From NCBI RefSeq assembly GCF_000759855.1, contig NZ_JNAI01000003.1:1-64000 (forward strand): a stretch of 64,000 bases of DNA, written 5' to 3'. Source of the DNA: Prochlorococcus marinus str. MIT 9107. GTDB lineage: Bacteria > Cyanobacteriota > Cyanobacteriia > PCC-6307 > Cyanobiaceae. Position 1 is the stretch's first letter, and every line of letters starts with the position of its first letter. The position numbers and the translations under genes were made by a program. Below are positions 2,999 through 21,457 of the stretch, one piece after another. The notes beneath the pieces were generated by a model. The model was not told where the DNA came from, did no database searches, and was given only the letters and a program-made list of their open reading frames with translations.

Positions 2999-3145
2999 TT
3001 AATTGCAACAAACCAAGCAATCTTCTTTATTTTTATAATCTATACATTCTTTATTTAAAGTTGCTTCTAGAAAATCCACTTTCTTAACATAATCAATATC
3101 TTTTAATTCTTTGTTTGGAACAGTGAATTGTGTTTGTAGTTTCAT
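2999..3145 (-). CDS. 48-residue protein with Cys-rich tail
   Basis: Starts at an ATG preceded by AGGAGA at good spacing. The C-terminus reads KEC-x8-C-x2-CC-N, a pattern shared with the product at 3348-3500 (KEC-x8-C-x3-C-D), so the two are probably paralogs. The N-terminal half is polar and charged with no membrane helix. The tail could bind a metal or form disulfides. It lies 15 bases after a 33-residue membrane peptide gene and is probably co-transcribed with it. Confidence 0.6.
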   Translation of the reverse strand: MKLQTQFTVPNKELKDIDYVKKVDFLEATLNKECIDYKNKEDCLVCCN

Positions 3146-3160
3146 TTTCTGTTCTCCTAA

Positions 3161-3262
3161 TTAATACTGTTTTTTGAATCCATTCCAAGTTTGAGAAAAC
3201 CTTAATCCCATATAAGAAATTAAAATTGTCCAAAATAAAATCTCTATACCTAAATTAGTCAT
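3161..3262 (-). CDS. 33-residue single-helix membrane peptide (paralog of 10208-10309)
   Basis: An ATG with a strong AGGAGG site upstream encodes MTNLGIEILFWTILISYMGL... ending QY. It aligns end to end without gaps to the peptide at 10208-10309 (MVNLGLEIVFWLILLIYIGA...), sharing NLG, E, FW, ILI/LLI and the final KQY/QQY. Two gap-free copies in one window show a real small membrane protein family. Function unknown. Confidence 0.7.
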   Translation of the reverse strand: MTNLGIEILFWTILISYMGLRFSQTWNGFKKQY

Positions 3263-3347
3263 TTGCCTAGCCTCCTTTCTATCTGATTAATCTTTAGTAT
3301 GTTTATTATGTAAAAATCAAGCGTAAGAATACCTAAAAGTTAAAGTG

Positions 3348-3500
3348 TTAATCACAAAAAATTTTGCAATGGTTGTTACTTGGATGCTCTGCACATTCTT
3401 TATGCCAATAAGCTCCAATTTCTTTTGGTTCAATATCATATGTAAGGTCTTTTTTATCCAAATTAATTTCTTGGATAGTAAATTTGTCTTTTAGTGCCAT
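3348..3500 (-). CDS. 50-residue protein with Cys-rich tail (paralog of 2999-3145)
   Basis: Uses ATG at 3500; the frame stays open to a TTG at 3605 (85 residues), but the shorter form matches the length and layout of the paralog at 2999-3145. The tail KECAEHPSNNHCKIFCD repeats the KEC-x8-C-x3-C-[DN]-stop arrangement. The N-terminal half is soluble and charged. The conserved cysteines suggest metal binding or disulfide formation. No family name is known to me. Confidence 0.6.
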   Translation of the reverse strand: MALKDKFTIQEINLDKKDLTYDIEPKEIGAYWHKECAEHPSNNHCKIFCD

Positions 3501-3737
3501 AAGACTTAACTCTTCACTACATCTATTTTCTAATTCATTTGAATAGTTAATTTCAAGTTTTATGTGTGCGGTTAGAGGAACAAAATTGTACGGATTAAGG
3601 ATCAAAAAAACCTCAAATTAAAAATAATTACAAGGAAGATATTTTAAAAAATATTGATTTCAACTTTAAAAAAATTCGGATAAGTTTCCATATAAATTCT
3701 GTTCCTTTATATCTTGTCTGAGATCAGCCATTATTAT

Positions 3738-3863
3738 TCATCCATCTAATCTATCTGCATATTCTCTTAAAACCTCAGCCATCTTTTGAGGTGGAATTTC
3801 TTGTTGATATTCTCTGCATAAATCAAAAAATTTATCCAAGAAATCTTTCATTAAAGAGGACAT
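3738..3863 (-). CDS. 41-residue amphipathic small protein
   Basis: Last gene of a four-gene chain on the minus strand, 5 bases after the previous stop. The product is charged and helical (FLDKFFDLCREYQQEI, then PPQKMAEVLREYADRLDG). It has no membrane helix, unlike the three genes before it, so it may be the soluble partner of the set. Not assigned to a named family. Confidence 0.6.
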   Translation of the reverse strand: MSSLMKDFLDKFFDLCREYQQEIPPQKMAEVLREYADRLDG

Positions 3864-3868
3864 GAAAA

Positions 3869-3964
3869 TTAGCGTTTCATTTTAAAAGTAAAGTATGCAA
3901 ACCCACCAAGAAATAAAAGACTCAGAACCTCATAAGTAATTGCTATTTCGTACATGTGAGTCAT
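3869..3964 (-). CDS. 31-residue membrane peptide
   Basis: Third gene of the tiny-gene chain; its ATG overlaps the previous stop (ATGA at 3961-3964). The peptide has one helix (VLSLLFLGGFAYFTF) and a basic end KMKR, fitting the positive-inside rule with a cytoplasmic C-terminus. Function unknown. Confidence 0.6.
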   Translation of the reverse strand: MTHMYEIAITYEVLSLLFLGGFAYFTFKMKR

Positions 3965-4101
3965 TTATTTATAAAGACATAAGCAGAATATAAATAAACT
4001 AAGAAAACTCCAATAGCAATCGAAGTTCCATAAATAAGAAAGTTCCAAATTTTATATAATTTAGGTTTTTTAAATTCTTTTTCTTCTTCTTTAGTAATCA
4101 T
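3961..4101 (-). CDS. 46-residue membrane peptide
   Basis: Second gene of the chain. A charged N-terminus (MITKEEEKEFKKPK) precedes one helix at about residues 19-40. It overlaps both neighbours by ATGA, at 4098-4101 and 3961-3964, which implies translational coupling along the set. Confidence 0.6.
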   Translation of the reverse strand: MITKEEEKEFKKPKLYKIWNFLIYGTSIAIGVFLVYLYSAYVFINK

Positions 4102-4214
4102 TTATTTCGTTTTTCTTTTCTGGCAGCATTACCTTTTGCTCTTAATACCAAAGTTATTGTAAGGGCAGCACTTAATATCACAGCATCAATTAATAGGTGT
4201 GGGGAGATATTCAT
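4098..4214 (-). CDS. 38-residue membrane peptide, first of a coupled chain
   Basis: One helix (LLIDAVILSAALTITLVL) followed by a strongly basic tail (RAKGNAARKEKRNK). It overlaps the next gene by ATGA. Immediately upstream, 4214-4243 encodes a nine-residue frame (MTLLISLMS) whose stop overlaps this ATG as TAATG, which could act as a coupled leader peptide. Confidence 0.6.
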   Translation of the reverse strand: MNISPHLLIDAVILSAALTITLVLRAKGNAARKEKRNK

Positions 4215-4389
4215 TAGCTCATAAGAGAAATAAGAAGAGTCATTATCTTTTCAGTAATAAATCTTTTATCCATTAAAAAAAGGTATTTTATTTATCTAAT
4301 TTTAGTTGTAATATCCTATCGTTTCAAGTTTTAAATGCAATAATTTTAAAAATAATTCGTTAAAATAATTTTATATTATTAAATTGTTA

Positions 4390-4521
4390 ATGCAAACTAC
4401 AGATAAGCCTTTTAAAAAATTATTACCCGCTGGGGAAAAGATCAAAAAATATTTGCCTTTTTTTATTGGATTTAAATTGTTTAAATTTACTGGTTTTCTT
4501 ACTTACATTATAAATCACTAA
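4390..4521 (+). CDS. Possible 43-residue peptide
   Basis: An ATG to TAA frame with a basic, proline-containing N-terminal half and a hydrophobic C-terminal half. No clear ribosome binding site and no relative seen in the window. It stands alone in an otherwise empty stretch. Listed as possible only. Confidence 0.3.
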   Translation: MQTTDKPFKKLLPAGEKIKKYLPFFIGFKLFKFTGFLTYIINH

Positions 4522-4875
4522 ATGATATTAACTGCATAAAAAATTGTATTTGATTTTCTCGCAGCAAATTTTTCTAGTTTTCAATTTTGATTTTAGATTT
4601 GATTTATTGAAAGATAAAAAATAGAATTTGATAAAGATCCAGTTTATAAAGAACAATGAACAGAAATATTCAATCATATTTCTAATAGAGAAATAAAGGC
4701 ATTAATTTGAAATAAATTTAAATTGCTAATTGCTTGAATTAGGAGAAAATATAAATAAAAATGATATATTTAAATTCTGAATAGCTTCTGCTTGCTCTTA
4801 TTTTTGATAATTTGCAAACTAACTGAAAATTTTTTTATAAATAAAAAATTATTTAGATTTATTTAATAAGGCTAT
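4522..4875. other. AT-rich spacer, no gene seen
   Basis: About 350 bases with stops in all frames and no convincing start, repeat or hairpin. Weakly coding-like fragments suggest at most a decayed remnant. Confidence 0.4.
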
Positions 4876-5256
4876 TTATATTGGTTCTCTCAATGCAGTA
4901 ATAACTAATCCACCTATCAATCCTAGATTCATAAGTACCGCTCTTTGATGGAAAGGGAATACATGAAAAATTATTGTAGTTGGGATGAGAAAAAGTAATA
5001 AAAATACTGAACCAATCTTTTGATTTTCTCCAAAGATAAAAAATCCAGAACCCAAGATAAGACATATAATTGCTCCCACTAGGAGTACAGATGATAATGG
5101 TTCAGAAATTCCTTTTGATGAAATATAGTCAACTGTTCTTTCAAAATCATTTATTTTGCCGTGGATTGCTGAGATAAATATAGCCGAGATGGCTAATCTT
5201 GAAAAAAAATCTAAAAGAGATTTGATACGTTTATTTTTGAAACTTAAATTTCTCAT
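4876..5256 (-). CDS. DoxX family membrane protein
   Basis: 126 residues with four predicted helices. The N-terminal RLAISAIFISAIHGKINDF corresponds to the DoxX pattern R-x-x-x-(G/A)-x-x-F-x-x-(A/G)-x-x-K. Related proteins sit in the inner membrane and are linked loosely to redox or thiosulfate functions, but none is established here. A second DoxX protein with a fuller signature is at 31701-32252. Confidence 0.75.
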   Translation of the reverse strand: MRNLSFKNKRIKSLLDFFSRLAISAIFISAIHGKINDFERTVDYISSKGISEPLSSVLLVGAIICLILGSGFFIFGENQKIGSVFLLLFLIPTTIIFHVFPFHQRAVLMNLGLIGGLVITALREPI

Positions 5257-5450
5257 AGTTTTATTATATTAAAAATATTATTTGTTAAACAAATACTTTG
5301 TTATTTATATAAATCTTTAGAAGATTCTCTAATAAGTTTTCTATATTAAAAAAAGTCTCCTAATTAATTTAAATCTTTTAAATATAATTTAGAGTATTTT
5401 TTATTTGTCTTTTTGTTTTCATGTAATAATGAATATAAGTTAAATTAAAA

Positions 5451-5927
5451 ATGTTTAATAAACTACTTTTATCTTTATTTTTACTTTTTAGTTCCTTTAT
5501 AACTATTTATCCTTCAAAAAAAGAAAATACTAATTTATTAGATTATTGTTATTCTCTAGAAAAAATAATTTCTAGAAATTCAGTAGAAAAAAATCAAAAA
5601 TTATCAAATAAATTTAAGCCTTTTGCAAAAGATATTACTGCATTTGGTTCTAATAAAACTAAAGGATCTTTGGCTAATAAGATAATTGATCAATATAAAA
5701 ATTCGAAAAAATTGTTTGTTATAACTCTAGTTCCTAATAAACTTTATTGTTTCGCTGGGTATTGGATTGAGGAGGTCAATCCAGGAATATTTAAAGCAAT
5801 TTTCTATGAGAAAAGCAAAGAAAGAATAAATGAATATAAAAATATAAAAAAAGAAGTCGATGAATTTATTAAGGATATTAATACAAAATATAATTCTATA
5901 AACATAGAAATTAATAATCTTTTTTAA
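5451..5927 (+). CDS. Hypothetical exported protein
   Basis: 158 residues. Residues 1-21 form a signal-peptide-like segment (basic Lys, hydrophobic core LLLSLFLLFSSFITI). The rest is lysine-rich and soluble with two cysteines, in DYCYSLEKI and LYCFAGYW. The middle (FVITLVPNKLYCFAGYWIEEV) looks like a compact beta domain. No family recognised. It stands alone with AT-rich spacers on both sides, as accessory genes often do. Confidence 0.6.
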   Translation: MFNKLLLSLFLLFSSFITIYPSKKENTNLLDYCYSLEKIISRNSVEKNQKLSNKFKPFAKDITAFGSNKTKGSLANKIIDQYKNSKKLFVITLVPNKLYCFAGYWIEEVNPGIFKAIFYEKSKERINEYKNIKKEVDEFIKDINTKYNSINIEINNLF

Positions 5928-6324
5928 TAAATTAAAATGCTTTTTTGAGGCTGAAATTTTTTTTTATATTTGATTAACTTTTTCTAGATGTCGAAATAAA
6001 AATTTTTCAAAAGCTAAAAATAAACATAAAGCAAATAATTGATAAAGAATAAATAAATTTTTATTGATTCTAAATTTTAGTTTGCCTTGTATAAGATTTC
6101 AAATAAGCTAAATTTTATATGTTTATAAATTATATTTTTTAATTTTTTTCTGATTTAAACTTTCTATAATTCTGACTATATTATTAATTTATTAAACATA
6201 TTTTTAAAATTTAATTTAAGTAAAAAAATTAGTGAGCGATTATACAAGTAAATTAGAACTTTAAAAAGAAACTCACAGATATTATTTGATAGACTTTATT
6301 ATTAATTAAACGTAATTGCATGTT
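5928..6324. other. AT-rich spacer, no gene seen
   Basis: Nearly 400 bases of extremely AT-rich sequence with no open frame worth reporting and no clear hairpin. Confidence 0.5.
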
Positions 6325-6468
6325 ATGAACATTTACCTTTTCTAGATTCTATTTTTAGCACTATGGGCAATAGTCCCATTAATTATTATTAAAGGGAAAA
6401 AAGACCAATCACCCAAAGTTCAGACTTCTCCTGAAGTTAAATCAAAGAAAAAAGGATGGTTTAATTAA
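6325..6468 (+). pseudogene. Small membrane peptide gene interrupted by an in-frame TAG
   Basis: ATG at 6325 reads MNIYLF, meets TAG at 6343-6345, then continues in the same frame as ILFLALWAIVPLIIIKGKKD and a Lys/Pro/Ser tail to TAA at 6466-6468. The helix plus basic tail after the stop looks like a genuine small membrane protein. No other ATG lies in the frame. A nonsense mutation, a sequencing error, or a rare start at ATT 6346 could explain it. Confidence 0.5.
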
Positions 6469-6592
6469 AGAACTATTTGAATTTAATTTAAACTTTTTAA
6501 GATTTAATCTGAAATTTTAATTATCATCAAAAACGTTTACTTAGTTAATTGACAGTTATAAAATTATTATTAAAGATTTAATTTTAATTTAA

Positions 6593-7270
6593 ATGAATGA
6601 AATAAGAACACCTTGGGGCTCAATTTCTTCAAAAGTTAATTTATTTCCAATTTATTACTTAATATTTATTTACGGGTTTGTATACATACTACCTTTTGGT
6701 AAAAATTTAATTGGTATAACTTGGTTTGATTTATTGAAAAAAGAAGATGGGCCATTGGAATGGTTGCAGTTTAGTGAGTTTTTTGTTTCCTTTCTAATTG
6801 GACTTTTTATTTTCTATAAATCAAAAAAAAAGAGATCAATCAATTCGTTGATTTGGTTATTTTTTAGTATATTTTGTTTCTTGATTGCTGCTGAAGAAAT
6901 AAGTTGGGGGGAGAGAATTACAGGCTTTACTTTGAATTCAATCTCAGAGTTAAGTATTCAAGGCGAGACAAATTTTCATAATCTTCCTTTTTTTCATAAT
7001 CTTTTTCTTGATCCTTTATTACATATTTTATGTATTTTCTTAGGTTGGGTTGGATGGAGAAAATGGTCACATTTAAGTGCGTTACCAAGTAGAAAATATA
7101 GCTTATTTTTTTTATTAGTATCTTTATATTTTGCCTACTATGATCTCTCCTGGGCTTCAACAATTCAGCATATTAGAAATGATCAAGAGATTTTCGAATT
7201 TCTCTTGTCTACTGGAATTTTTTTGCATTTTTTGCAGAATATACGATTATTAAAAAATTCAAAAAAATAA
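6593..7270 (+). CDS. Multi-spanning membrane protein with EEISWGER motif
   Basis: 225 residues with about six hydrophobic segments. Residues 99-111 read AAEEISWGERITG, a charged motif between helices that recurs in uncharacterised bacterial membrane proteins (EEISWGQR type). A cytoplasmic basic loop KSKKKR follows the second helix. The paired glutamates and the Trp at a membrane boundary suggest a functional site, but no activity is known to me. Monocistronic by spacing. Confidence 0.7.
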   Translation: MNEIRTPWGSISSKVNLFPIYYLIFIYGFVYILPFGKNLIGITWFDLLKKEDGPLEWLQFSEFFVSFLIGLFIFYKSKKKRSINSLIWLFFSIFCFLIAAEEISWGERITGFTLNSISELSIQGETNFHNLPFFHNLFLDPLLHILCIFLGWVGWRKWSHLSALPSRKYSLFFLLVSLYFAYYDLSWASTIQHIRNDQEIFEFLLSTGIFLHFLQNIRLLKNSKK

Positions 7271-7396
7271 ATTTTTCATTACTCAAATAGATAATTAAAA
7301 ATTCCTTTTAAGTTAAAATGGTTTACATATTTGAAGTGCCATTCAAAATATGAGAAATTTTAATCTTTAAAATACTTTTATAAGGTACTTAAATAA

Positions 7397-8599: not shown

Positions 8600-8785
8600 A
8601 AGAAATTTATGTTATTTATACGTTCTTTTCTCTCATTATAAAATATCAATGATTTACAGACCAATATTACAATGCTTATTTAAAGCCTATTTTTTATATG
8701 TAATCCCTAAAGTAAATCAAAAAATGATTTTTCATACTTGCAGTTAAACAAAAGATTTGGTTTCTTTAGTATAAAAAGCAAATTA

Positions 8786-8917
8786 ATGCAAAATAAAACT
8801 TTTTTAAAAGAATGTAAGTGCATGCATTGCCAACAAAAATTAGAACAGATTAATATGTCAAGATTATATTGGAACAAAATAATTTTAAGAAAAAATAAAG
8901 CCCAATTTATATTCTAA
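8786..8917 (+). CDS. Possible 43-residue peptide with clustered cysteines
   Basis: The product begins MQNKTFLKECKCMHCQQKLEQI, with a CxCxxC cluster that could bind a metal, followed by a basic stretch. There is no strong ribosome binding site and no relative seen, so it may be a remnant. Confidence 0.35.
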   Translation: MQNKTFLKECKCMHCQQKLEQINMSRLYWNKIILRKNKAQFIF

Positions 8918-9220
8918 ATAATCTGGAATTTGCAAGTAATTCCACAATAGCAACTTTTTAAAATATATATGAAATGAAAGACATTAAAGTTGTTGAAGCG
9001 AGTCTTTAAATGCTCTTTTCAAGTTATTTTATTACTTAGCTTTTTGATTTCTTTTGTAGATTCTATTTTCTCTATTTAAAAGAAAAAGGATAATAAGGAT
9101 AAAAGAAGGAATGAGAATAAAATCTAAAGACACAAATTATATAGACTCTATTTTTTATTTAGCAAAAAATTTAAACTTTGACATTCTTTTAAGGCCTGAA
9201 AGCTTTTTTTTAATAAAAAA
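8918..9220. other. AT-rich spacer, no supported gene
   Basis: Only short frames broken by stops. A possible 36-codon plus-strand frame from 9110 runs into the pentanucleotide repeat and is not supported by a ribosome binding site. Confidence 0.4.
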
Positions 9221-9250
9221 AATCTAATCTAATCTAATCTAATCTAATCT
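9221..9250. repeat. (AATCT)6 pentanucleotide repeat
   Basis: Six perfect copies of AATCT, between a gene-poor spacer and the terminator of a minus-strand small RNA. Copy number of such a simple repeat is likely to vary by slippage. Confidence 0.95.
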
Positions 9251-9275
9251 AATGGTTTTTATATGGGTTGCTTTA

Positions 9276-9364
9276 AAAAATTAAAAGAGCTTGCAAGTAT
9301 CCCACCGGCAAGCTCATGACGACCAGGTTAATCACATTTCTGAGAACAACCAGCTAAGCACTTC
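9276..9364 (-). ncRNA. Probable small RNA with intrinsic terminator (Yfr2-like candidate)
   Basis: On the minus strand a GC-rich island reads about 50 bases into an 8-bp perfect stem GAGCTTGC / GCAAGCTC (9308-9315 with 9287-9294) followed by TTTTAATTTTTT, a standard terminator. A -10-like TATAGC at 9371-9376 would start the RNA near 9364, giving about 90 nt. No ribosome binding site or useful frame exists inside. GC content is well above its surroundings. Size, structure and location near hli genes resemble Prochlorococcus Yfr RNAs, particularly the Yfr2 family; the family label is recall, not a search. Confidence 0.6.
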
Positions 9365-9574
9365 CTAAATGCTATACATATATTACTAAGTAAAATTACT
9401 TACTGTGAGTATAAATGCTTATTTTGCAAATAAATCCGCAAAATAGATCAAAAGAAATAATTTAATTAGATTGTTTGGAGCAACTAGTTTTTGTCATAAT
9501 TGTCACATATTGTTCAATAAGTGATAGGTATAAAACCTTTTATCGCTTTCTGGTTTACGAAAATTAATATTTGT

Positions 9575-9592
9575 GTTACATTATTTAACAAT
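9575..9592 (+). promoter_or_regulatory. HLR1-like direct repeat before an hli gene
   Basis: GTTACATT-AT-TTAACAAT resembles the high-light regulatory HLR1 element (two GTTACAWW-type repeats separated by 2 bases) bound by RpaB in cyanobacteria. The second half has mismatches. It ends only 12 bases before the hli ATG, closer than usual, so the call is tentative. Confidence 0.3.
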
Positions 9593-9604
9593 TCAAACTT
9601 CTAA

Positions 9605-9811
9605 ATGTCAAACTCAGAAATTACAACAGAATCAGGTGGGAGACAAAATATGTTCCCTTCTGAAACAAGACCTTACATAGATGAAACTGTATCTTACGAT
9701 GGATATCCTCAAAATGCAGAAAAAGTAAATGGCAGATGGGCCATGATAGGATTAGTTGCACTTCTAGGGGCATACATAACAACAGGCCAGATTATACCAG
9801 GTATTTTTTGA
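9605..9811 (+). CDS. hli: High-light-inducible protein, long form (68 aa)
   Basis: A soluble N-terminal extension of about 35 residues precedes AEKVNGRWAMIGLVALLGAY and ITTGQIIPGIF, the chlorophyll-binding helix and the conserved hli tail. HLIPs accumulate under high light, nutrient stress or phage infection and dissipate excess excitation. This copy is monocistronic and keeps all signature residues (Glu, Asn, Arg). Confidence 0.92.
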   Translation: MSNSEITTESGGRQNMFPSETRPYIDETVSYDGYPQNAEKVNGRWAMIGLVALLGAYITTGQIIPGIF

Positions 9812-9930: not shown

Positions 9931-10059
9931 TTAACTTAATTTTGAAAATGAAAAAAACCAAATAAAGGTTATTGCATTAAGACCAAATATTATTCCTAGA
10001 AATAAATATGCAAATTTTTTGCCTATAAATGCTGTCTCAGGCTCAAGCTTTACTCTCAT
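9931..10059 (-). CDS. 42-residue membrane peptide
   Basis: Starts MRVKLEPETAFIGKKF, then one helix (AYLFLGIIFGLNAITFIWFFSF) and a short polar end. The polar charged N-terminus followed by one helix is plausible for a photosynthetic complex accessory peptide; no name is assigned. Confidence 0.5.
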   Translation of the reverse strand: MRVKLEPETAFIGKKFAYLFLGIIFGLNAITFIWFFSFSKLS

Positions 10060-10207: not shown

Positions 10208-10309
10208 TTAATATTGTTGTTTAAAAACCTTTTTAGTTTGTGTTAATCTGGCACCTATGTAAATTAGTAAAATTAGCCAAAATACTATTTCCAATCCTAG
10301 GTTTACCAT
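10208..10309 (-). CDS. 33-residue single-helix membrane peptide (paralog of 3161-3262)
   Basis: Encodes MVNLGLEIVFWLILLIYIGA and a basic tail ending KQQY. It aligns without gaps to the peptide at 3161-3262, mostly with conservative changes. Its ribosome binding site is weaker than the other copy's. The pair indicates an expanded tiny membrane family. Confidence 0.65.
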   Translation of the reverse strand: MVNLGLEIVFWLILLIYIGARLTQTKKVFKQQY

Positions 10310-10522: not shown

Positions 10523-10663
10523 TTAAATGAAACCTGGAATAATTTGACCTGTTGTCAAGTAAGCTCCAACAAGTGCTATAAAACCTAACATCGCAAATCT
10601 CCCATTTAGCTTTTCAGCTACTATTTTTTCTTTTTCTATAATTTTGGTTTCCGTGTTTTTCAT
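10523..10663 (-). CDS. hli: High-light-inducible protein (46 aa)
   Basis: Uses the ATG at 10663; a longer open frame to 10741 runs out of frame through the preceding hli gene and is rejected. It has VAEKLNGRFAMLGFIALVGAY and LTTGQIIPGFI. It is the second member of a TAATG-overlapped pair and the nearest relative of the gene at 1297-1434. Confidence 0.9.
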   Translation of the reverse strand: MKNTETKIIEKEKIVAEKLNGRFAMLGFIALVGAYLTTGQIIPGFI

Positions 10664-10770
10664 TAGAACCAACCTGGAATAATTTGACCAGTTGTTACAT
10701 ATGCGCCAACTGCTGCGACGAAACCTAGCATTGCTGCCCAACCATTAAAACGTTCTGCTTCTGGAGTCAT
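10663..10770 (-). CDS. hli: High-light-inducible protein, minimal form (35 aa)
   Basis: MTPEAERFNGWAAMLGFVAA then VGAYVTTGQIIPGWF: almost nothing but the chlorophyll-binding helix and tail. The usual NGR is NGW here, so the Arg that pairs with the ligand Glu in related proteins is replaced. The stop overlaps the next start by one base. A good promoter lies just upstream at 10793-10821. Confidence 0.88.
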   Translation of the reverse strand: MTPEAERFNGWAAMLGFVAAVGAYVTTGQIIPGWF

Positions 10771-11131: not shown

Positions 11132-11296
11132 ATGTCATTTGCAACTTATTACTTTCATTTAATTTTTGCGAGAATTCCTTCTCTATTAAGTTCTGATTTA
11201 ATACTTTATATAGTGCCCGCTCTTACAATTTTAATATTATTCTTTAGCTTCAAAATAATGTTTTTTAAGACTCCTAAGTTGAGAAAAGTTAAATAA
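11132..11296 (+). CDS. 54-residue membrane peptide
   Basis: ATG to TAA frame with one helix (LILYIVPALTILILFFSF) and a basic tail KTPKLRKVK. The Ser/Phe-rich N-terminus may be lumenal or periplasmic. It ends 46 bases before the DUF938 gene, possibly in the same transcript. No family known. Confidence 0.5.
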   Translation: MSFATYYFHLIFARIPSLLSSDLILYIVPALTILILFFSFKIMFFKTPKLRKVK

Positions 11297-12014: not shown

Positions 12015-12176
12015 TCAAGCTGAGAGTTTTCTTCTCCATTCTTTATGCTTCTCATCTAAATCTGATACTTTTTCACCTAAAATCAACTGTTTTTCTAATA
12101 ATTCCACTTTTGTAAGAGTTATTATCTCTGAATAAAATTTAATAGGTTGTTTCCCAAGAAAATTGTCTCCACTCAT
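12015..12176 (-). CDS. 53-residue small charged protein
   Basis: MSGDNFLGKQPIKFYSEIIT is followed by a heptad-like helix (LTKVELLEKQLILGEKVSDL) and a basic end. No membrane segment. It looks like a short coiled coil, with no recognised family. Confidence 0.5.
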   Translation of the reverse strand: MSGDNFLGKQPIKFYSEIITLTKVELLEKQLILGEKVSDLDEKHKEWRRKLSA

Positions 12177-13714: not shown

Positions 13715-13846
13715 TTAAAGACCGCGTATATATCTTTTTGGGAGTCCTTGTTGTTTTCTTGGTTTTACTAAAATAGGTAAAACAATTACTCCTACTGTAA
13801 AAAGACAAATTGGAGCCACTACCATTAATATAGATTCTAAAGACAT
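13715..13846 (-). CDS. 43-residue membrane peptide
   Basis: One helix (LMVVAPICLFTVGVIVLPIL) followed by a basic Pro/Gly-rich tail (VKPRKQQGLPKRYIRGL). Tiny but well-formed topology with a cytoplasmic C-terminus predicted. No named family. Confidence 0.6.
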   Translation of the reverse strand: MSLESILMVVAPICLFTVGVIVLPILVKPRKQQGLPKRYIRGL

Positions 13847-14044: not shown

Positions 14045-14185
14045 ATGGATGAAGAAAAAAAATGGATGCTAATGACTTATTATTGTCCAACACATGGCGA
14101 TTCAGCCATAGCAAAACCGATTCAAATAACAAAAAAAGAAATTAGTGAAACACTCTTTAAAGAAGGTAAGTCCTCTAAAAATTAA
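14045..14185 (+). CDS. 46-residue small soluble protein
   Basis: GAAGG lies 8 bases before the ATG. The product (MDEEKKWMLMTYYCPTHGDS, then a KPIQITKKEISETLFKEGK-like segment) is soluble and charged with one Cys-Pro-Thr-His turn. No family recognised. Confidence 0.5.
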   Translation: MDEEKKWMLMTYYCPTHGDSAIAKPIQITKKEISETLFKEGKSSKN

Positions 14186-14477: not shown

Positions 14478-14630
14478 TTAAGCTTGATCAGAATCGCAGG
14501 TTAATTTACATTGACTTAGCTCATTAGATGATATCCTCTCTAAAATTCTTAACATGTCAATTTCCGAAAGCTCTCCATTAGAGTTCCATTTAAGAGTTGT
14601 TTTCCTTTGCGGGGAATTTCTTTTATTCAT
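14478..14630 (-). CDS. 50-residue small protein, second gene of a Cys-motif pair
   Basis: A strong GGGAGG site precedes the ATG. The product is basic at the start (NKRNSPQRKTTLKWN), then helical (GELSEIDMLRILERI), with CKLTC near the end. It overlaps the upstream Cys-rich gene by 8 bases, so the two are co-translated. Both ends carry C-x3-C, suggesting related metal or disulfide chemistry. Confidence 0.65.
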   Translation of the reverse strand: MNKRNSPQRKTTLKWNSNGELSEIDMLRILERISSNELSQCKLTCDSDQA

Positions 14631-14781
14631 TTTGATAACCTCCCTTTAAATGAATTTCTAAACAACGAGTAATACATTTTTGATGACCATCTACAATACT
14701 GCATTCAGTAATACATTCAAAATATGAATTAATAGGATCTTTTTCTGTATTCTCGTAAGCAGAAATAAATGAATTATTCAT
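14623..14781 (-). CDS. 52-residue protein with twin CX3C motif
   Basis: Contains ECITEC and, eight residues after its last Cys, CITRC: C-x3-C-x8-C-x3-C within a predicted helical hairpin. This spacing resembles twin-CX3C metal- or disulfide-bonded helical hairpins, but homology to those eukaryotic families is not implied. It overlaps the next gene, whose ribosome binding site lies inside this coding sequence. Confidence 0.65.
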   Translation of the reverse strand: MNNSFISAYENTEKDPINSYFECITECSIVDGHQKCITRCLEIHLKGGYQNE

Positions 14782-15114
14782 AAATTTTTAAATTTATTTG
14801 AAAAAGATATATAGCACGAAATTATAATTAATAATTAACTTTATGAAGTAAATTAGAAAAAATAAGTATTATTTACTAAATTAGGATTTCACCTCATTTG
14901 CCTTAAGAAGGTTTGTAATAATATTCTTCTAAAAAATGGTGGAAAATAACAATTTTAATTTTACGAAGTAAATTCTCTGACTTTCGTTTCTTCCAATTTT
15001 GATTTTTGAATATTAATTTTTTCTAAATTAAACTTTCAAAAAATCAGCATAAAGACTGATTTACTTTTGAATAATTTAATTAGATGATAATAAAATACAC
15101 TTTTAGATTTTCAA
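14782..15114. other. AT-rich spacer, no gene seen
   Basis: About 330 bases containing the promoter of the minus-strand Cys-motif operon and probably that of the plus-strand gene at 15115. Nothing else stands out. Confidence 0.4.
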
Positions 15115-15267
15115 ATGAAATCAGCAACTTATTGGCTTTCGAAAATGTTTGAGAGTATGGCAAATGCTTTCATTCATCCTATAAAGAATGACTTGCCTCC
15201 ATCTATTGGAACACACGCATATAGTAGTATTCCTCTTAAGAGAAAATTTAGACGAAGATATAATTAA
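15115..15267 (+). CDS. 50-residue basic small protein
   Basis: MKSATYWLSKMFESMANAFI then a Pro-rich turn (HPIKNDLPPSIGTHAYSSIP) and a strongly basic end LKRKFRRRYN. It ends 3 bases before the stop of the minus-strand desaturase remnant. The basic tail could bind nucleic acid or lipid headgroups; unassigned. Confidence 0.5.
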   Translation: MKSATYWLSKMFESMANAFIHPIKNDLPPSIGTHAYSSIPLKRKFRRRYN

Positions 15268-15270
15268 GTA

Positions 15271-16377
15271 CTAACTTATTGAAATTAATCTTTCATTTTT
15301 ATTATCCCAAATAATATATTTGAAGCAGTTTGGAAAATCGCTTAATTTTAAGAACTTTGATTGCTTAAGCGAATGACTATTTGCGTTATGACAGGCTATT
15401 AAATTATAGTTTGGGATTCCTTCAGAAAGATGATGAATGCTATGGAATGATATGTCTGCTAAAAACCAATTTAGCAAATTAGGTATATTTAAATTGCTAC
15501 TACCTAAAATTGCACCTTCCAAGATGTCCCAATTTTTTGTATTTTTAGCATATGCATTTTTATAGTTATGTTGGACGAAAAAAATACATATTAGAATAGC
15601 GGCTGATAATGTGGATACTAAAGAATAAAATAACAGGAAAAATACTATTCCCAACCATTTAGACATAAACATCCATCCTGTTATTACTATGACGTTATTC
15701 GTTATTAATTCAAATAGCTCACTAAAATTATCACCGTAATCAGAAAAAGGGGGCTTGACTCTGGATTTGATAGCTAATAATTCAGAAAATTTTCGTTTCT
15801 TAAGTTTGATAAAAGCCTCTTTTACTAAATCATTAGAAAAATTAAGAATTATAATCAGCAATCCTAATCTAGGTTTCAAAACTAAATAATAAAATCCTCC
15901 AGGGAAAAGCATTATCCAATTTCTACTTAATCTGTAAAATAATTGTTCTCTTTTTGAGAGATGATTATAATCCTCAAGACTTATAAAATCTATGGGACCT
16001 TTATAGATTTCCCAATTACCATTATTTCTATGATGAAATGCATGGTCAATTGACCATGATTTTTGAGGAATGCCATTTACTAGGCCAAGCAAAAATCCAA
16101 AGAAGCTGTTTAACTTCGTTTTGTAAAAAGAGAGTTATTACCGCAATCATGCATTAGTGAAAATGTTCTAGATGAAAGTAGCGTTAGAAGACAGAGAATA
16201 GGTCCTAATAAGAAAACTTTAATTAAGAAAAAGAAAGGCGAATTTATTATTTGGTTAGCAATTAACCAAAGAGAGATAATTGGGACTATGGTAGAAGCGA
16301 TTTAAAAAAAAGCTCTACAATTATCTCTTTGTTAGAAATGGCTTTATTAAAAAATCACTTCTTCTTATTTTGGTCAT
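15271..16377 (-). pseudogene. Decayed fatty acid desaturase
   Basis: The main open part (15271-16092, 273 codons) has two desaturase histidine boxes, HAFHH near its residue 18 and HSIHH near 217, but lacks the N-terminus. Upstream, box 1 is found in another frame (SRTFSLMHDCGNNSLFTKRS then stop); one missing A at the CGAAGTT junction separates it from the LNSFFGFLLGLVNG continuation. Further upstream, MTKIRRSDFLIKPFLT and EIIVELFFKSLLP lie in two more frames back to an ATG at 16377. Box 1 reads HDCGN, so its last His is also lost. Multiple lesions indicate a dead gene. Confidence 0.8.
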
Positions 16378-16464
16378 ATTTTTTCTAGTACCTTTTAATG
16401 AAAATAACAAATTTCAAAAAAATATTTATTATTAATTAAGAAGGGCAATTTTTTTGATAAATCA

Positions 16465-16620
16465 CTAAAGAATAAATTCTTTAGACATAGTTCTCAATTG
16501 ATCTAAATTTAATCTCTTTAAGTAATTCTTAAAATCACAAAGAGTCTTCTTTGATTCAGAATCTTTATTCTTATAAAGAAGGCTATTAGAAATTAATTCT
16601 ACAAGATGATCTTTATCCAT
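16465..16620 (-). CDS. 51-residue helical small protein
   Basis: AAGGAG precedes the ATG at the right distance. The product is entirely soluble and helical (MDKDHLVELISNSLLYKNKD, then KTLCDFKNYLKRLNLDQLRT). The register suggests a short helical bundle. No family assigned. Confidence 0.6.
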   Translation of the reverse strand: MDKDHLVELISNSLLYKNKDSESKKTLCDFKNYLKRLNLDQLRTMSKEFIL

Positions 16621-16734
16621 AACTCCTTATAGACCATATTTCCTATTAAAAAAAATAAGGTCTTGAATTCGAGATCATTAAGTTATGTTTTAATAAGATT
16701 ATTTTTAAAAATTATTATTAATTAAATTTTTATT

Positions 16735-16953
16735 TCATAAATTTTTTAAATCTTGCTCTATTTTTTCTAGTCTTTCATTTAATTCTTTTTGTTCCATAAT
16801 TAAGCCTCTCTTATTTTTGTAAGTTCTTTGTTCAAAGGTGAATTCAAATATTTTTGATATGCGACAAAAAAAAACTATTATTGCTACTGCAATACCAAGA
16901 GCACCAATAATTAAAATTGGAGATGAAGGAAATTCATAAAACGGAATAGACAA
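16735..16953 (-). CDS. 72-residue membrane protein with C-terminal coiled coil
   Basis: TTG start; no ATG precedes the membrane segment in frame. One helix (PILIIGALGIAVAIIVFFC) is followed by a basic linker and a heptad segment MEQKELNERLEKIEQDLKNL. If initiation were at that internal Met only a 20-residue coil would be made. The membrane anchor plus coil suggests a self-assembling accessory protein. Confidence 0.55.
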   Translation of the reverse strand: MSIPFYEFPSSPILIIGALGIAVAIIVFFCRISKIFEFTFEQRTYKNKRGLIMEQKELNERLEKIEQDLKNL

Positions 16954-17082
16954 AGTTATTTAATAAAATTTAAGTTTAGCTATCTCTAAATAATAAAAAT
17001 AAGTAATAAATGCTCATTCTTGAGGGAATTTCATAGATAATTATTTTATATATTGTGCAAACAAAAAAAATTAAGGTTTTTC

Positions 17083-17107
17083 TTTAATTTAATTTAATTT
17101 AATTTAA
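17083..17107. repeat. (TTTAA)5 pentanucleotide repeat
   Basis: Five perfect copies of TTTAA in the spacer upstream of the 108-residue gene at 17183. It is the second 5-bp simple repeat in the window. Confidence 0.9.
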
Positions 17108-17182
17108 TTCATAAAAATGAGTAATTGTACAGCTGTCAAAGGAAGAAAAGCTAATAATGATTAAATTAGTAAAAATCTTTTC

Positions 17183-17509
17183 ATGAATAAAATCATTAAT
17201 AAAAATCATAATAAATATGAACCTTGGTTTAAATGGTTAACTAGAGAACTTAATTCTTATGAGGCTTTTAATGATTTCGACTCTGGTAAAAATCCAGAAG
17301 ATGTTGCAGAGGATTTTATCTCTAATAATAGGATTGCTATTTCGCAAGTTTTTGAGAATTTTGATGAAGAAGATAAAGATACACTCGATCAGTTTCTTAA
17401 ATTAACAGAATGTGAATGGCATGTTTTTAGAATTCTTGAAAAGCAAATAGCGTTAAGAAATAATATAAAATTTGTAGATTTTAAAAAAAGAAAAAAAATA
17501 AAGAGTTGA
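17183..17509 (+). CDS. Conserved hypothetical, paralog of 28080-28346
   Basis: 108 residues, soluble and acidic. The core KNPEDVAEDFISNNRIAISQ ... FLKLTECEWHVF aligns with the protein at 28080-28346 (LTPSQIAERFVNENNDGFIE ... FMKLSESKLHIL) with matching spacing. The N-terminal aromatic block PWFKWLTREL parallels WFFWFYEKWE in the paralog. A small helical domain is likely. Function unknown. Confidence 0.7.
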   Translation: MNKIINKNHNKYEPWFKWLTRELNSYEAFNDFDSGKNPEDVAEDFISNNRIAISQVFENFDEEDKDTLDQFLKLTECEWHVFRILEKQIALRNNIKFVDFKKRKKIKS

Positions 17510-17636
17510 TTTTCATTGAATTAGCATATAAATATTTTTTAGATAAAGTTAAATTAACTTAATTTAAATTTTTCTTTAGGATAAATTCAGCTCATATATA
17601 AATTAATTAATATGCTCTTGAATAATCTTTTAATTT

Positions 17637-17972
17637 CTATATAAATTTATTTTTGCCATTACCAGACTTCCCAAATCCTAACCAGATAAACCATAAAATC
17701 CATCCAAATATTGGTATTAAATTTATAAAGATCCATTTCCAATTCTTACCAAAATCTCTGATTCTTCTTATATCAATAGCTATTGTAGGAATAATACAAA
17801 CAATTCCATAAGCATTGAAACCAAAAGTCTTTAAAAATATTGGGATAGTAATGAAATAAATTATCAGATTTGCTAATTGAACATACCACCAGTCTGACCT
17901 TAATGTGAAACCTGTGAAGTCTGTAGCTTTAATCCAAAATTGTTGATATGCATTTAAAAAGTCTTTAAGCAT
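17637..17972 (-). CDS. DUF805 family membrane protein
   Basis: 111 residues with three to four helices. The N-terminal pattern NAYQQFWIKATDFTGFTLRSDWW is a DUF805 hallmark (aromatic-rich, F-x-G-R-x-x-R-S-x-F/Y-W). DIRRIRDFGKNWKWIF also fits the conserved RRLHDxGxSGW block. DUF805 proteins are inner membrane proteins of unknown role. Monocistronic. Confidence 0.8.
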   Translation of the reverse strand: MLKDFLNAYQQFWIKATDFTGFTLRSDWWYVQLANLIIYFITIPIFLKTFGFNAYGIVCIIPTIAIDIRRIRDFGKNWKWIFINLIPIFGWILWFIWLGFGKSGNGKNKFI

Positions 17973-18039
17973 AAATTAAGATTACAAGAATTTAATATTA
18001 TCAATTTGATCTTTAATTTATCAAAATGTTATTTATTTA

Positions 18040-18204
18040 CTAAATAGGATCAAATAGATTCATATCATTTGTATCTTGTTTTGTGATCTCTTCTCGATTT
18101 GGTAATGAACAGAATCCGTCTTTGCAAATCATCTTTTCTTTTGCAATATCTGTAGTCTCCGAGAATGTATTTTTATTATGGTTATTTGAAGATTCTTTCA
18201 GCAT
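18040..18204 (-). CDS. 54-residue protein with CKDGFC motif
   Basis: A polar Asn/Ser/Lys-rich N-terminus leads to MICKDGFCSLPNREE and an acidic end. The C-x4-C loop could form a disulfide or metal site. No membrane helix. Unassigned. Confidence 0.5.
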   Translation of the reverse strand: MLKESSNNHNKNTFSETTDIAKEKMICKDGFCSLPNREEITKQDTNDMNLFDPI

Positions 18205-18283
18205 TTATAATGGAAAAATTAAAGCCAATATTAAATTAATAACTTAATTTATATTGATAGGCAACAAAATTAATATTAATCAT

Positions 18284-18379
18284 TTACTTTTTTTGATTTG
18301 GTAAGTCTCTCCAAAATAGTGCCATTATGTAAATGAATAAAGATATAGAACAAATATAGAGTAAAGAATTTAAATGCAT
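18284..18379 (-). CDS. 31-residue membrane peptide
   Basis: MHLNSLLYICSISLFIYIMA then LFWRDLPNQKK: one helix with a basic C-terminal end, similar in size and layout to the other one-helix peptides in this half of the window. Confidence 0.45.
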   Translation of the reverse strand: MHLNSLLYICSISLFIYIMALFWRDLPNQKK

Positions 18380-18631
18380 GTTTATTTATGAAGGGAATAA
18401 AGCATAATAAGTCTCTCTTTAAAAAAAAGGAATAACTATGAATAGGTAATTGTTTGATTAAGCAATAAGATAAATTCTAATATTTATTTAAGGTTTTTAT
18501 GATTTTCCCAAACTTTCAAAAGTTCAAATAGTTATTTATTAGGAATATATTTAAGATAGTAAAACTTATAAAGCCTTTATATAAATAATGCTAATAAGAA
18601 AATTCTACATTTTTAATTTCTTTTTTGATAT

Positions 18632-18772
18632 TTAGGATGAATCCTTATTTATTTCTTCTAGAGCTTTTCTACCCTCTTTTAGAGTCTTTAAGACTAGTAA
18701 CGATAGAGAAGAGATAATCAGAATGGCAAGTGTAACTAAGGAGATAAGATTGGTATTGACATTATGAGCCAT
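18632..18772 (-). CDS. 46-residue membrane peptide
   Basis: MAHNVNTNLISLVTLAILII then SSLSLLVLKT and a charged helix LKEGRKALEEINKDSS. One transmembrane segment near the N-terminus and an amphipathic tail. No stop or spacing anomaly. No named family. Confidence 0.6.
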   Translation of the reverse strand: MAHNVNTNLISLVTLAILIISSLSLLVLKTLKEGRKALEEINKDSS

Positions 18773-18808
18773 TTAACTGACGTTAATTTGCTGCTGTGAT
18801 TTAGAAGA

Positions 18809-18991
18809 TTATACGTTAGATCTCGAATAAGCAGGAATTAGCATTCCACCATCTTGGTCATCATTATTATCATCATCGAAGCCACCTCCAAGAAGTAACT
18901 CTATAATTACGAGTACAGCTACGGGATAAAAACACCATAATAATGCTGTAAAAGGAATTACTGAGGATGAAGCTGAATACAAGTCTGTCAT
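18809..18991 (-). CDS. 60-residue membrane protein with Asp-rich GG tail (paralog-like to 20133-20267)
   Basis: One helix (ALLWCFYPVAVLVIIELLLG) precedes GGGFDDDNNDDQDGGMLIPA. The acidic run followed by Q-[DE]-G-G-x-L-I also ends the product at 20133-20267. An acidic, Gly-rich C-terminus just outside the membrane suggests divalent metal or protein contact. Function unknown. Confidence 0.65.
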   Translation of the reverse strand: MTDLYSASSSVIPFTALLWCFYPVAVLVIIELLLGGGFDDDNNDDQDGGMLIPAYSRSNV

Positions 18992-19273
18992 ATATAGATC
19001 TTAATCAAGAGAAACAACAATTGTGGATTCCTTGGGTAGTGGTATTATTTATCTCTATAGATATTTTTTAAAACTTTTTCTGTCATACTAATAAACCTTA
19101 GGTATATATTGACATTTTCATACTTGAAGATGAATTTGAATAATAATTGTCTTCTACACTACTAAGAAACTCATAATGACATAATGAATCATGCAATTGT
19201 TATTTTTTATACTTAACAATAATTGTACAATTTTGAATCAAAAACTATTATTTATCTTGATTTTATTAATTCT

Positions 19274-19405
19274 ATGTTTTCTTTCACTTTTGATCCTTTG
19301 GCTGCGATATTTGGTATATCAGGAATTGTAGGCTTCTTTTTCTTCGTTTCTGCTGCTAAGAAAACTTCAAGTATGAATACTAAGCCAAACAAGCAATTAG
19401 ATTAG
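19274..19405 (+). CDS. 43-residue membrane peptide
   Basis: ATG at 19274 is preferred to an upstream TTG at 19223. FSFTFDPLAAIFGISGIVGF then FFFVSAAKKTSSMN: one helix with a basic soluble C-terminus. No family named. Confidence 0.5.
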   Translation: MFSFTFDPLAAIFGISGIVGFFFFVSAAKKTSSMNTKPNKQLD

Positions 19406-19470
19406 AAATTCTCAGTCAGAAAAATAAATTGAGACTTTAAATCTATTATTTTTAAAGGGCTTGTTAATTA

Positions 19471-19641
19471 TTATTTATTCCATTTTCTAGAAATAAACTC
19501 AAGAAAATCTTTTAGGTCCTCTTCAGGACAATTTGTTTGTTTTTGTAAATCAATGCAAATTTGTTTAATATTTTCATATGCTTCTTTTACTGTTTCGTTT
19601 TTCTCGATAACCTCAAAATATTCTTGATCAGTAAAAGGCAT
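19471..19641 (-). CDS. 56-residue helical small protein
   Basis: MPFTDQEYFEVIEKNETVKE followed by AYENIKQICIDLQKQTNCPE and a DFLEFISRKW end. It is soluble and acidic with two cysteines. It resembles a small two-helix protein. Unassigned. Confidence 0.55.
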   Translation of the reverse strand: MPFTDQEYFEVIEKNETVKEAYENIKQICIDLQKQTNCPEEDLKDFLEFISRKWNK

Positions 19642-19645
19642 GATA

Positions 19646-20132
19646 TTAGTTTTCCTTTTGGAAATTATGTATTAACTATATTTTATCTGCATTGACTTAA
19701 TAATAAAACAAGAAAAAACTTTTTTTCTTACATTTTACTTCTCAACCGATAATTTTTTTTAAATACTTTGTTTAACGCCCACTTGCAGTAAAGCCCATCT
19801 TGAAACTCAACAAGAACTCCAGCTTTAATTCAATTACATAAATTGCACCTTTTGGGGAACTTATATTAGCTTGGAATTCAGTAATTTAGCAAATTTACTT
19901 ATTATCTTAATTCCATTGGAATTTGCTTAGCTAACATTCCCAAATAGGCCAACTTTTTATTCCATACTTAATTATTACGCTTGCACTACATTTAGAAGAG
20001 ATTAGAACTTTCAATAGTTCTGATATATTTTTATTTTATTTTTTTAAATAAAAGAAATCTTTATTTTCGAGAATGTATATTTATTTACTGTCTTTTATTC
20101 TTTTTCGTTTATTATTAAAAAAATCTAAATTT
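19646..20132. other. Intergenic stretch with no supported gene
   Basis: Nearly 490 bases. A slightly GC-richer part near 19780-19960 contains the palindrome AATTCCATTGGAATT (19909-19923) but no terminator-like run. No ATG-initiated frame with a ribosome binding site was found. It may hold an unrecognised RNA or a gene remnant. Confidence 0.4.
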
Positions 20133-20267
20133 ATGGATGAGCTTTCTGTATTATCAATTTCTTTATCTATAGCTTCTCTTGGGATATTTTTTTTATTTTT
20201 TGGGTCAAATGATGATGATGATCAAGAAGGAGGTAAGTTGATTAAATTAGCCCAAAGAATTAATTAA
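20133..20267 (+). CDS. 44-residue membrane protein with Asp-rich GG tail
   Basis: ATG at 20133 is preferred because the upstream in-frame ATG at 20073 would add an unrelated second hydrophobic run. MDELSVLSISLSIASLGIFF is the membrane helix; the tail GSNDDDDQEGGKLI repeats the motif of the product at 18809-18991. The stop overlaps the stop of a convergent minus-strand gene by 4 bases. Confidence 0.6.
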   Translation: MDELSVLSISLSIASLGIFFLFFGSNDDDDQEGGKLIKLAQRIN

Positions 20268-20386
20268 TTTAAAGTAAATAGAGCGTTCAATAAAGATTTA
20301 TAACCTATAAAGCCTGCATAAATACAGCTTAGAAAAATAACATAAACTTCAAAAGTTCCAAGTTTTTTCTTCTTTAAAATTTTCAT
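20264..20386 (-). CDS. 40-residue membrane peptide
   Basis: A basic start (MKILKKKKLG) is followed by one helix (VYVIFLSCIYAGFIGYKSLL). The topology is N-in by the positive-inside rule. The stop codons of this gene and the plus-strand gene at 20133 share TTAA. Confidence 0.5.
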   Translation of the reverse strand: MKILKKKKLGTFEVYVIFLSCIYAGFIGYKSLLNALFTLN

Positions 20387-20463
20387 TATTCTAAGTATTT
20401 ACAAGACAATTTTATTTAATCTTATTTCTATTAACATGAGTATTTATTACATTAACCCCGACA

Positions 20464-21336
20464 TTACAGAACTATTAATATCAAGCCAAAGAATAAAAAA
20501 CAAGTAAAAAATATTATTTTTTTAGTAATTTCTCTTTCCTCATTCTTAGCAAAAAATAAAGAAATTACTGGAGATATACTTAATAAAGCCCATCCCACTC
20601 CTATGGGAAGTGTTTTAAATACAATTTGTTGTAGCAATATTCCTAAATTGGTTCCAAGCAATATTGAAACCAAAAATCTTTTTCGTTGATTTTTTTCCAT
20701 TTTTTTTAAGAAAAAATTAATTTTAAATCTTTCTAAAGTAATTAAAAAAATTATTGCACCTAATAATCTAATCTCAGTTGTAAGGAGAGGAGATAAATTG
20801 CTTTGAAGGAAAACTATCCTTGAAAATAGACCTCCTAAAACAGCACATAAAACTGATAAAATAGGAAATGCATAAATCTTAAATTTATTTTTTTCTGAAA
20901 AAGGTGAGTTTCCCTCCTTATAATTATTCCCTTTTTTGAGAATTATGAAAAGCGAAATCGATACAATGATTATTCCAATCCATGATTTGGGTTTTAAATT
21001 TTCATTAATAAAAATTTCACCCGATAAAGCAGCCATTAAAGGAGAAAGAGTTTCTACAGATAGAGTTTTTCTTGTGCCAATTGTTTGTAATGACTTTAGG
21101 TAGAAGGTATCACCTAAACCAATACCTATTATTCCACTAAATAGCAGGATAAATATGTATTTCAATTCAGTTGAAGAACTGAGATTTACAAAAGACGGAA
21201 TAAAAATTAAAAAAGCTATTGTATTTTTTATTAAATTTATATCTATTGCTTTATATTTTTGAGTTTGCGATCGCCAAATAAAGCATGCATAAGTCCAAGA
21301 TGTAGCAGCTCCAAAAGCAGAAAGGATTCCAATCAA
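20464..21336 (-). CDS. EamA/DMT-superfamily transporter
   Basis: 290 residues with ten predicted helices arranged as two five-helix EamA repeats: residues 1-130 ending ENLKPKSWIGIIIVSISLFI, and 150-290. DMT permeases export or import small metabolites (amino acids, nucleotides, sugars), and the substrate cannot be read from sequence. The loop GLGDTFYLKSLQTIGTRKTL matches the helix 3-4 block of the family. Confidence 0.85.
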   Translation of the reverse strand: MIGILSAFGAATSWTYACFIWRSQTQKYKAIDINLIKNTIAFLIFIPSFVNLSSSTELKYIFILLFSGIIGIGLGDTFYLKSLQTIGTRKTLSVETLSPLMAALSGEIFINENLKPKSWIGIIIVSISLFIILKKGNNYKEGNSPFSEKNKFKIYAFPILSVLCAVLGGLFSRIVFLQSNLSPLLTTEIRLLGAIIFLITLERFKINFFLKKMEKNQRKRFLVSILLGTNLGILLQQIVFKTLPIGVGWALLSISPVISLFFAKNEEREITKKIIFFTCFLFFGLILIVL

Positions 21337-21358
21337 AACGAGTAATCTCTAGAAAATT

Positions 21359-21457
21359 TTATTTTATAAATTGAGTTAGTGCTAAAAAAAATACATACAT
21401 AAGAATTAAGACTCCAGGCAAGTACTGAATTAAAGATTTTAAATTATTTATTTTCAT
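21359..21457 (-). CDS. 32-residue membrane peptide
   Basis: MKINNLKSLIQYLPGVLILM then YVFFLALTQFIK. One helix with a basic N-terminus. The size is within the range of tiny photosystem subunits, but neither PsaM nor PetN nor Psb30 matches. Confidence 0.45.
   Translation of the reverse strand: MKINNLKSLIQYLPGVLILMYVFFLALTQFIK

Follow-up and report, generated by a model that had tools for sequence, protein, structure and literature searches.

Among the closest described relatives of the locus considered here is genomic island 5 (ISL5) of Prochlorococcus MED4. Our locus is a cluster of tiny genes between 2.9 and 21.7 kb of a 64,000-nucleotide (nt) stretch of Prochlorococcus marinus str. MIT 9107 (contig NZ_JNAI01000003.1, positions 1 to 64,000 of the forward strand), which we call the window. 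In the available text of Steglich et al. (2008), the small RNA Yfr20 and the genes hli11/12 lie inside ISL5 with PMED4_15491 in the vicinity, and the island takes part in the responses to high light and to phosphorus starvation. The same text counts 113 small open reading frames (ORFs) absent from the first MED4 annotation, 89 of which a later annotation added, and gives PMED4_15491 the phage homologues PSSM4_181 and PSSM2_278. Small ORFs at this place in MED4, as well as phage relatives of PMED4_15491, had thus been described in 2008; the hli cassette around the phage homologues and the companion family described below do not figure in that part of the source. Yfr20 itself is upregulated on a shift to high light, according to the literature. 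A precedent of another kind comes from Synechocystis, where Psb34 competes with HliA/B at CP47 and Psb35 stabilises the high-light-inducible proteins (Hlips), both being small accessory proteins that modulate the binding of Hlips to, or their stability on, CP47 (PMC9458560). Finally, cyanophages carry, in an hli cassette mostly upstream of psbA, members of the families T4-GC 437/273 and T4-GC 272, which are homologues of two proteins of our locus but are annotated merely as hypothetical.

The cluster shares with ISL5 of MED4 and MIT9312 the genes hli11/12, Yfr20 and small hypothetical genes, and the homologous segment of MED4 forms the border of ISL5, but the right half of the cluster, kept in collinear order throughout the high-light (HL) genomes examined, has the character of core genome. 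On the whole we favour, with some reserve, a reading in which the tiny genes are a real cluster under purifying selection, at least two of whose members form part of a module found in company with hli and likely sit beside Hlips in the thylakoid. In the sea, few photosynthetic cells are as abundant as Prochlorococcus and few viruses as abundant as its myoviruses, and the reason why phages carry so many hli genes is unsettled. A pair of small membrane proteins that keep company with hli on the host side and on the phage side offers concrete targets in the search for Hlip partners. Moreover, a genome regarded as streamlined retains a long stretch, about half of it non-coding, in which conserved proteins of 30-60 residues are densely encoded.

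Small frames as conserved genes

About 35 small frames (31-78 codons, 2.9-21.7 kb) are open with conserved start and stop in up to 43 loci of relatives, mostly with an omega of 0.04-0.5. This follows from a projection in which every ORF of at least 25 amino acids (aa) was placed on the relatives' loci and scored for start, stop, frame and omega; frames in the shadow of larger genes gave, in the same projection, an omega of about 1 or higher and were broken in most relatives. Protein-level searches agree with the projection and sharpen the position of several starts. The comparison set comprised 40 stretches, each of up to 20 kb beside an anchor gene at 21907-23154, together with three named loci; a contig scan anchored on LptG yielded few loci, and the anchor gene was used over whole genomes instead. 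The host genome measures 1.70 Mb in 13 contigs, with about 31% GC across most of the window. Because the anchor gene is about 90% identical in same-genus relatives and about 79% in a second group, and because the MED4 locus includes the published Yfr20 position, the window can be assigned from its sequence to a high-light Prochlorococcus near the HLII strains. The strain and clade names given to the other relatives (MIT9312, HLI, HLII and low-light, LL) are probable assignments.

The initial annotation had proposed about thirty tiny genes between 2.9 and 21.5 kb, to be abandoned should codon-level conservation be lacking. It is partly confirmed: such conservation is present, and the density of small genes is specific to the segment. 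One rule, applied with one set of ten genomes to three blocks, counts 19 conserved genes no longer than 60 aa for 2.4-21.9 kb, and 2 and 0 for the two 20 kb blocks that follow; for 2.4-4.3 kb the figure is too low, as few of the ten genome stretches extend there. The coding share is 49% in 2.4-21.9 kb and 89-90% in the two adjacent 20 kb blocks. ORFs of 31-60 aa beginning with ATG number 56, as against 34.8 +/- 4.9 in first-order Markov simulations. Hydropathy calls a likely membrane helix in 20 of 36 small genes and several carry paired cysteines, much as had been read from the sequence at the outset, and the suspected local paralogues are there as three pairs (3161/10208, 2999/3348 and 18809/20133; genes are named by their first coordinate). 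What did not survive is the claim of good ribosome binding sites: a Shine-Dalgarno-like motif occurs in 6/36 small genes, 6/50 shadow ORFs and 6/50 large genes, and for want of enrichment over shadow ORFs such sites were rejected as coding support. Pfam and NCBIfam gave no credible match for the small proteins scanned. The weaker cases are 3348-3500, 3738-3863, 3869-3964, 4390-4521 and 8786-8917.

Two families that accompany hli genes

The following features bear on the link to hli and to phages:

18809-18991, minus strand: 60 aa acidic-tailed single-helix protein, homologue of cyanophage T4-GC 437/273; omega 0.13
20133-20267, plus strand: 44 aa single-helix protein, tail motif DDDDQ[DE]GG as in 18809; in 40/43 loci
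16735-16953, minus strand: 72-codon single-helix gene, homologue of cyanophage T4-GC 272 (hli cassette), middle scrambled here
9605-9811, plus strand: hli gene, 68 aa, counterpart of phage hli03a (E 9.4e-16); intact 30/30, omega 0.09
10523-10663, minus strand: hli gene, 46 aa, counterpart of phage hli04 of P-SSM4 (E 6.6e-19); omega 0.18
10663-10770, minus strand: hli gene, 35 aa, counterpart of phage hli03b (E 1.3e-18); enclosing frame omega 0.15
9288-9374, minus strand: Yfr20 small RNA; Rfam RF02367, 69.3 bits

The 18809 protein, which has no Pfam match, contains a single hydrophobic helix that opens with WCFYP and ends in a DDDNNDDQDGGMLIPAY tail. Its family occurs in all same-genus genomes of the sample but one and extends to other genera whose genomes measure about 1.7-2.0 Mb; the larger picocyanobacterial genomes of the sample contain no member except one weak partial match. 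Among the Prochlorococcus-type genomes examined it includes the LL clades and is usually single-copy, and PMED4_15491 is most likely the MED4 orthologue. A first phage tblastn at strict E with 18809 and 20133 found no match, probably owing to low-complexity masking of the acidic tail, and a looser search with the MED4 version found PSSM4_181, PHM1_203, PSSM7_220, PSSM2_278, SSSM7_271 and PHM2_202, with E down to 4e-7. In P-SSM4, P-HM1, P-SSM7, S-SSM7 and P-HM2 the homologue is placed between psbA, which follows it, and the hli03/04 or hli05-cluster genes directly ahead of it; P-SSM2 has it inside the hli cluster, psbA being outside the stretch viewed. The family behaves as a host-like gene of the cyanophage hli cassette in these six isolates and in IMG/VR, where it has 316 confirmed stretches: hli ORFs lie at most 241 nt from it in 75 of the best 80 contigs, and psbA is seen in 22/80, the contigs being short. 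The PHROG families that match 18809 have no function assigned in PHROG (PHROG 7843, 905 and 17393 for T4-GC 437/273 and T4-GC 272).

Hosts show the same neighbourhood. An hli gene lies within 2 kb of the 18809 gene in 15/17 LL-type genomes, not all of them independent cases, as several share one arrangement, and hli hits number only 4-9 per genome in the six LL-type genomes counted; a third acidic-tailed paralogue lies inside hli operons. In a tree of 46 members (58 columns, details weak) some phage genes stand beside HL hosts and some beside LL hosts, and because of this split at least two host-phage exchanges are deduced for the 18809 family.

The 16735 protein matches T4-GC 272 (PSSM7_218, PSSM2_277), which is encoded between the hli genes and T4-GC 437/273. 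Among 80 viral copies of its family in IMG/VR, 35 lie no more than 600 nt from hli, and 31 are also close to an 18809 relative; in all five HL loci fetched, additional host copies border on hli clusters. The phage hli genes find their best matches among 9605, 10523, 10663 and 1181, within this host region, the only one searched. Taken together, these matches and neighbourhoods suggest that both the 18809 and 16735 families have passed between hosts and phages. In the literature searched, which took in few subscription papers and no supplementary files, we found no mention of the tie to the hli cassette in phage and host genomes, nor of a second companion family.

The border of genomic island 5

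The part of the segment from about 9 to 21.9 kb is collinear in every HL locus examined (about 30 HLII and 8 HLI-type), and its last few kb are collinear also in the loci of three more distant, LL-type genomes. The left part (2.9-9 kb) is looser, with extra DNA near 4.3 kb in most relatives and with displaced copies; in MIT9312 the gene set of 2.9-4.2 kb is interspersed with an hli gene and separated from the anchor by about 21 kb. The position corresponds to ISL5 of MED4, whose locus covers the published place of Yfr20. Hypervariable islands have content absent or replaced between close strains, and the right half (about 9-21.9 kb), to which this comparison applies, does not behave so. Judged by gene order, the cluster sits on the core-genome side of a MED4-type island 5. 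The proposal of a "stress-related genomic island" thus stands as regards the interspersed hli genes, Yfr20 and a border with an island of reported stress responses, but not as regards variability, for about 9-21.9 kb is no variable island.

The hli genes and the decayed desaturase on which that proposal drew are present: three hli genes lie in the range, and the desaturase frame 15271-16092 is without its 5' half (frameshifts, stops), relatives having about 370 uninterrupted codons. The 16735-16953 copy is broken also in several other HLII genomes, which carry another intact copy elsewhere, and the gene at 6325 is interrupted by a stop codon; single-base damage may reflect sequencing error.

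Possible role and alternative explanations

On inspection, the ExxNGR chlorophyll-binding helix of (CAB-like) Hlips is absent from the 18809 and 16735 families, and their members are not Hlips themselves. By analogy with Psb34 and Psb35, we infer that the two proteins may sit in the thylakoid next to Hlips, where they would help Hlips to bind, stabilise or release assembly intermediates of photosystem II (PSII) under light stress and so contribute to PSII protection; phages would carry the homologues with hli and psbA to sustain PSII repair during infection. The analogy is one of size and proposed role, 18809 having an acidic C-terminal tail and not an HliA/B-like N-terminus, and profiles of the 18809 and 16735 families, examined for homology to Psb34, matched no photosystem chain among solved structures. 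Searches of solved structures with the 18809, 20133 and 16735 families returned chance matches only. A bolder proposal, which we put forward tentatively and hold somewhat less probable than not, is that the acidic-tailed family (18809, its paralogues and T4-GC 437/273) and the T4-GC 272 family are hitherto unrecognised partner subunits of Hlip complexes in Prochlorococcus, imported by cyanophages with hli and psbA as one photoprotection kit.

Several observations weigh against an hli-travelling module with a role beside Hlips. Of the 80 viral copies of the 16735 family, 45 lie away from hli, the 18809 gene of HL hosts lies several kb (about 8 kb) from the nearest hli, and most of the other small genes have no link to hli or phage; moreover, distant matches need care, given such short proteins and the low complexity of the acidic tail. 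One might regard the tiny genes as unrelated remnants of a mobile island, decaying phage or transferred DNA grouped where the region tolerates insertions. The low GC, the coding share of only about 49%, the decaying units (6325, 16735 and the desaturase), the phage homologues of several families and the displaced MIT9312 set with its interspersed hli gene would all suit such an origin, which we nevertheless consider unlikely, since purifying selection is strong and starts and stops are kept in about 30 HLII and 8 HLI-type genomes; for the right half, collinear and partly so into LL clades, it is already contradicted.

Less likely still is that 18809 and 16735 are phage-derived hitch-hikers of hli cassettes, having a phage function such as hijacking or membrane remodelling and kept by hosts without a role in photoprotection. 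The wide occurrence in cyanophages and the exchanges required by the tree speak for it, but 18809 is found in nearly all Prochlorococcus-type genomes examined, LL included, evolves with an omega of 0.13 in HL genomes and is retained beside hli by the hosts themselves. As to chance ORFs in AT-rich intergenic DNA, the Shine-Dalgarno counts are what such frames would give, but the conservation of frame, start and stop and the low omega in dozens of genomes refute this for most frames, the excess of ATG ORFs over simulation points the same way, and the explanation was rejected as highly improbable. Of these accounts we retain the conserved cluster with its hli-travelling members.

Remaining features of the window

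The other features of the segment are:

2999-3145, minus strand: 48 aa, C-terminal cysteine motif CLVCCN, paralogue of 3348; intact 4/4, omega 0.35; MED4 and MIT9312 copies near hli
3161-3262, minus strand: 33 aa single-helix, paralogue of 10208-10309; intact 5/5, omega 0.18; distant cyanophage homologues in P-HM2 and 37 IMG/VR loci
3348-3500, minus strand: 50 aa paired-cysteine protein, ATG inside an 85-aa frame; omega 0.61 for the whole frame; weaker support
3738-3863, minus strand: 41 aa soluble; omega 0.41, intact only 3/6 by DNA projection; protein matches in relatives
3869-3964, minus strand: 31 aa single-helix, 4-nt overlap with next gene; intact 5/6, omega 0.60; MIT9312 homologue in same order
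3961-4101, minus strand: 46 aa single-helix, 4-nt overlaps with both neighbours; intact 6/7, omega 0.42; LL homologue 63%
4098-4214, minus strand: 38 aa single-helix; intact 9/10, omega 0.23
4390-4521, plus strand: 43 aa, C-terminal helix; matches in 32/43 loci; third-position excess, omega 0.37, N-terminus variable
6325-6468, plus strand: 47-codon single-helix gene, TAG at codon 7 here, TGG in 28/28 relatives; matches in 30/43 loci
8786-8917, plus strand: 43 aa CxC..CxxC protein, C-terminus variable; matches in 34/43 loci; enclosing frame omega 0.53 with frameshifts
9032-9133, minus strand: 33 aa single-helix; intact 23/29, omega 0.22
9931-10059, minus strand: 42 aa single-helix; intact 30/31, omega 0.17; HLI 6/7
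10208-10309, minus strand: 33 aa single-helix, paralogue of 3161-3262; HLI intact 8/8, omega 0.19; HLII 7/16
11132-11296, plus strand: 54 aa membrane protein; intact 31/31 and 8/8, omega 0.21
12015-12176, minus strand: 53 aa soluble; omega 0.20, 8/8; weak IMG/VR homologue, E 1.4e-4
13715-13846, minus strand: 43 aa single-helix; intact 31/31, omega 0.13
14045-14185, plus strand: 46 aa, CPTHGD motif; omega 0.45; conserved in HLII and HLI
14478-14630, minus strand: 50 aa, family in 103/120 picocyanobacterial genomes; omega 0.22; IMG/VR homologues
14623-14781, minus strand: 52 aa twin-CX3C protein; intact 30/31 and 8/8; all four cysteines invariant
15115-15267, plus strand: 50 aa soluble; intact 31/31 and 8/8, omega 0.23
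15271-16383, minus strand: fatty acid desaturase whose 5' half has decayed through frameshifts and stops; relatives have an intact gene of about 370 aa
16465-16620, minus strand: 51 aa soluble; intact 30/31, omega 0.28
17183-17509, plus strand: 108 aa soluble, paralogue at 28080-28346; omega 0.25
18040-18204, minus strand: 54 aa CKDGFC protein; intact 30/31, omega 0.45
18284-18379, minus strand: 31 aa single-helix; omega 0.04; LL homologues
18632-18772, minus strand: 46 aa single-helix; intact 25/32, omega 0.32
19274-19405, plus strand: 43 aa single-helix; matches in 40/43 loci including LL; omega 0.37
19471-19641, minus strand: 56 aa soluble, two cysteines; intact 29/29, omega 0.16; LL homologues
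20264-20386, minus strand: 40 aa single-helix; omega 0.17, LL homologues; in-frame stops in 20/29 HLII, near 3' end where seen
21359-21457, minus strand: 32 aa single-helix; intact 29/29 and 6/6, omega 0.18
21482-21718, minus strand: 78 aa single-helix; intact 29/29, omega 0.15

The cyanophage relatives of the 33-aa family (3161, 10208) lie away from hli; in P-HM2, positions 2706-2798 of the locus examined hold a small ORF homologous to this family that the phage annotation does not list as a gene. The 14478 protein has IMG/VR matches by hidden Markov model and none in the direct viral scan. For the twin-CX3C protein 14623, direct search found no viral relative, with a weak match to phrog_665 only; its invariant pattern (CITEC...CITRC) is unusual for a bacterium. 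MED4 carries two near-identical hli clusters, and behind each comes a small frame with weak similarity to the 6325 gene. Elsewhere in the window, 31671-32249 (plus strand) encodes a membrane protein strongly similar to PHM1_207 of P-HM1 (E 3.9e-46), a phage gene between hli and psbA, and is thus a further gene common to host and phage; 28080-28346 (plus strand) is the paralogue of the 17183-17509 gene (E 7.3e-14); and 6593-7270 (plus strand) encodes a 225-aa membrane protein, without Pfam match, in only 4/43 relatives' loci. Short tandem runs of AATCT at 9218-9252, beside Yfr20, and of TTTAA at 17083-17110, upstream of the 17183 gene, were also seen, as were repeats of about 30 bases (CCCTCTTCTGTAACTTGCTCCTCTTCCTTC) at 1-230, within a coding-looking region.

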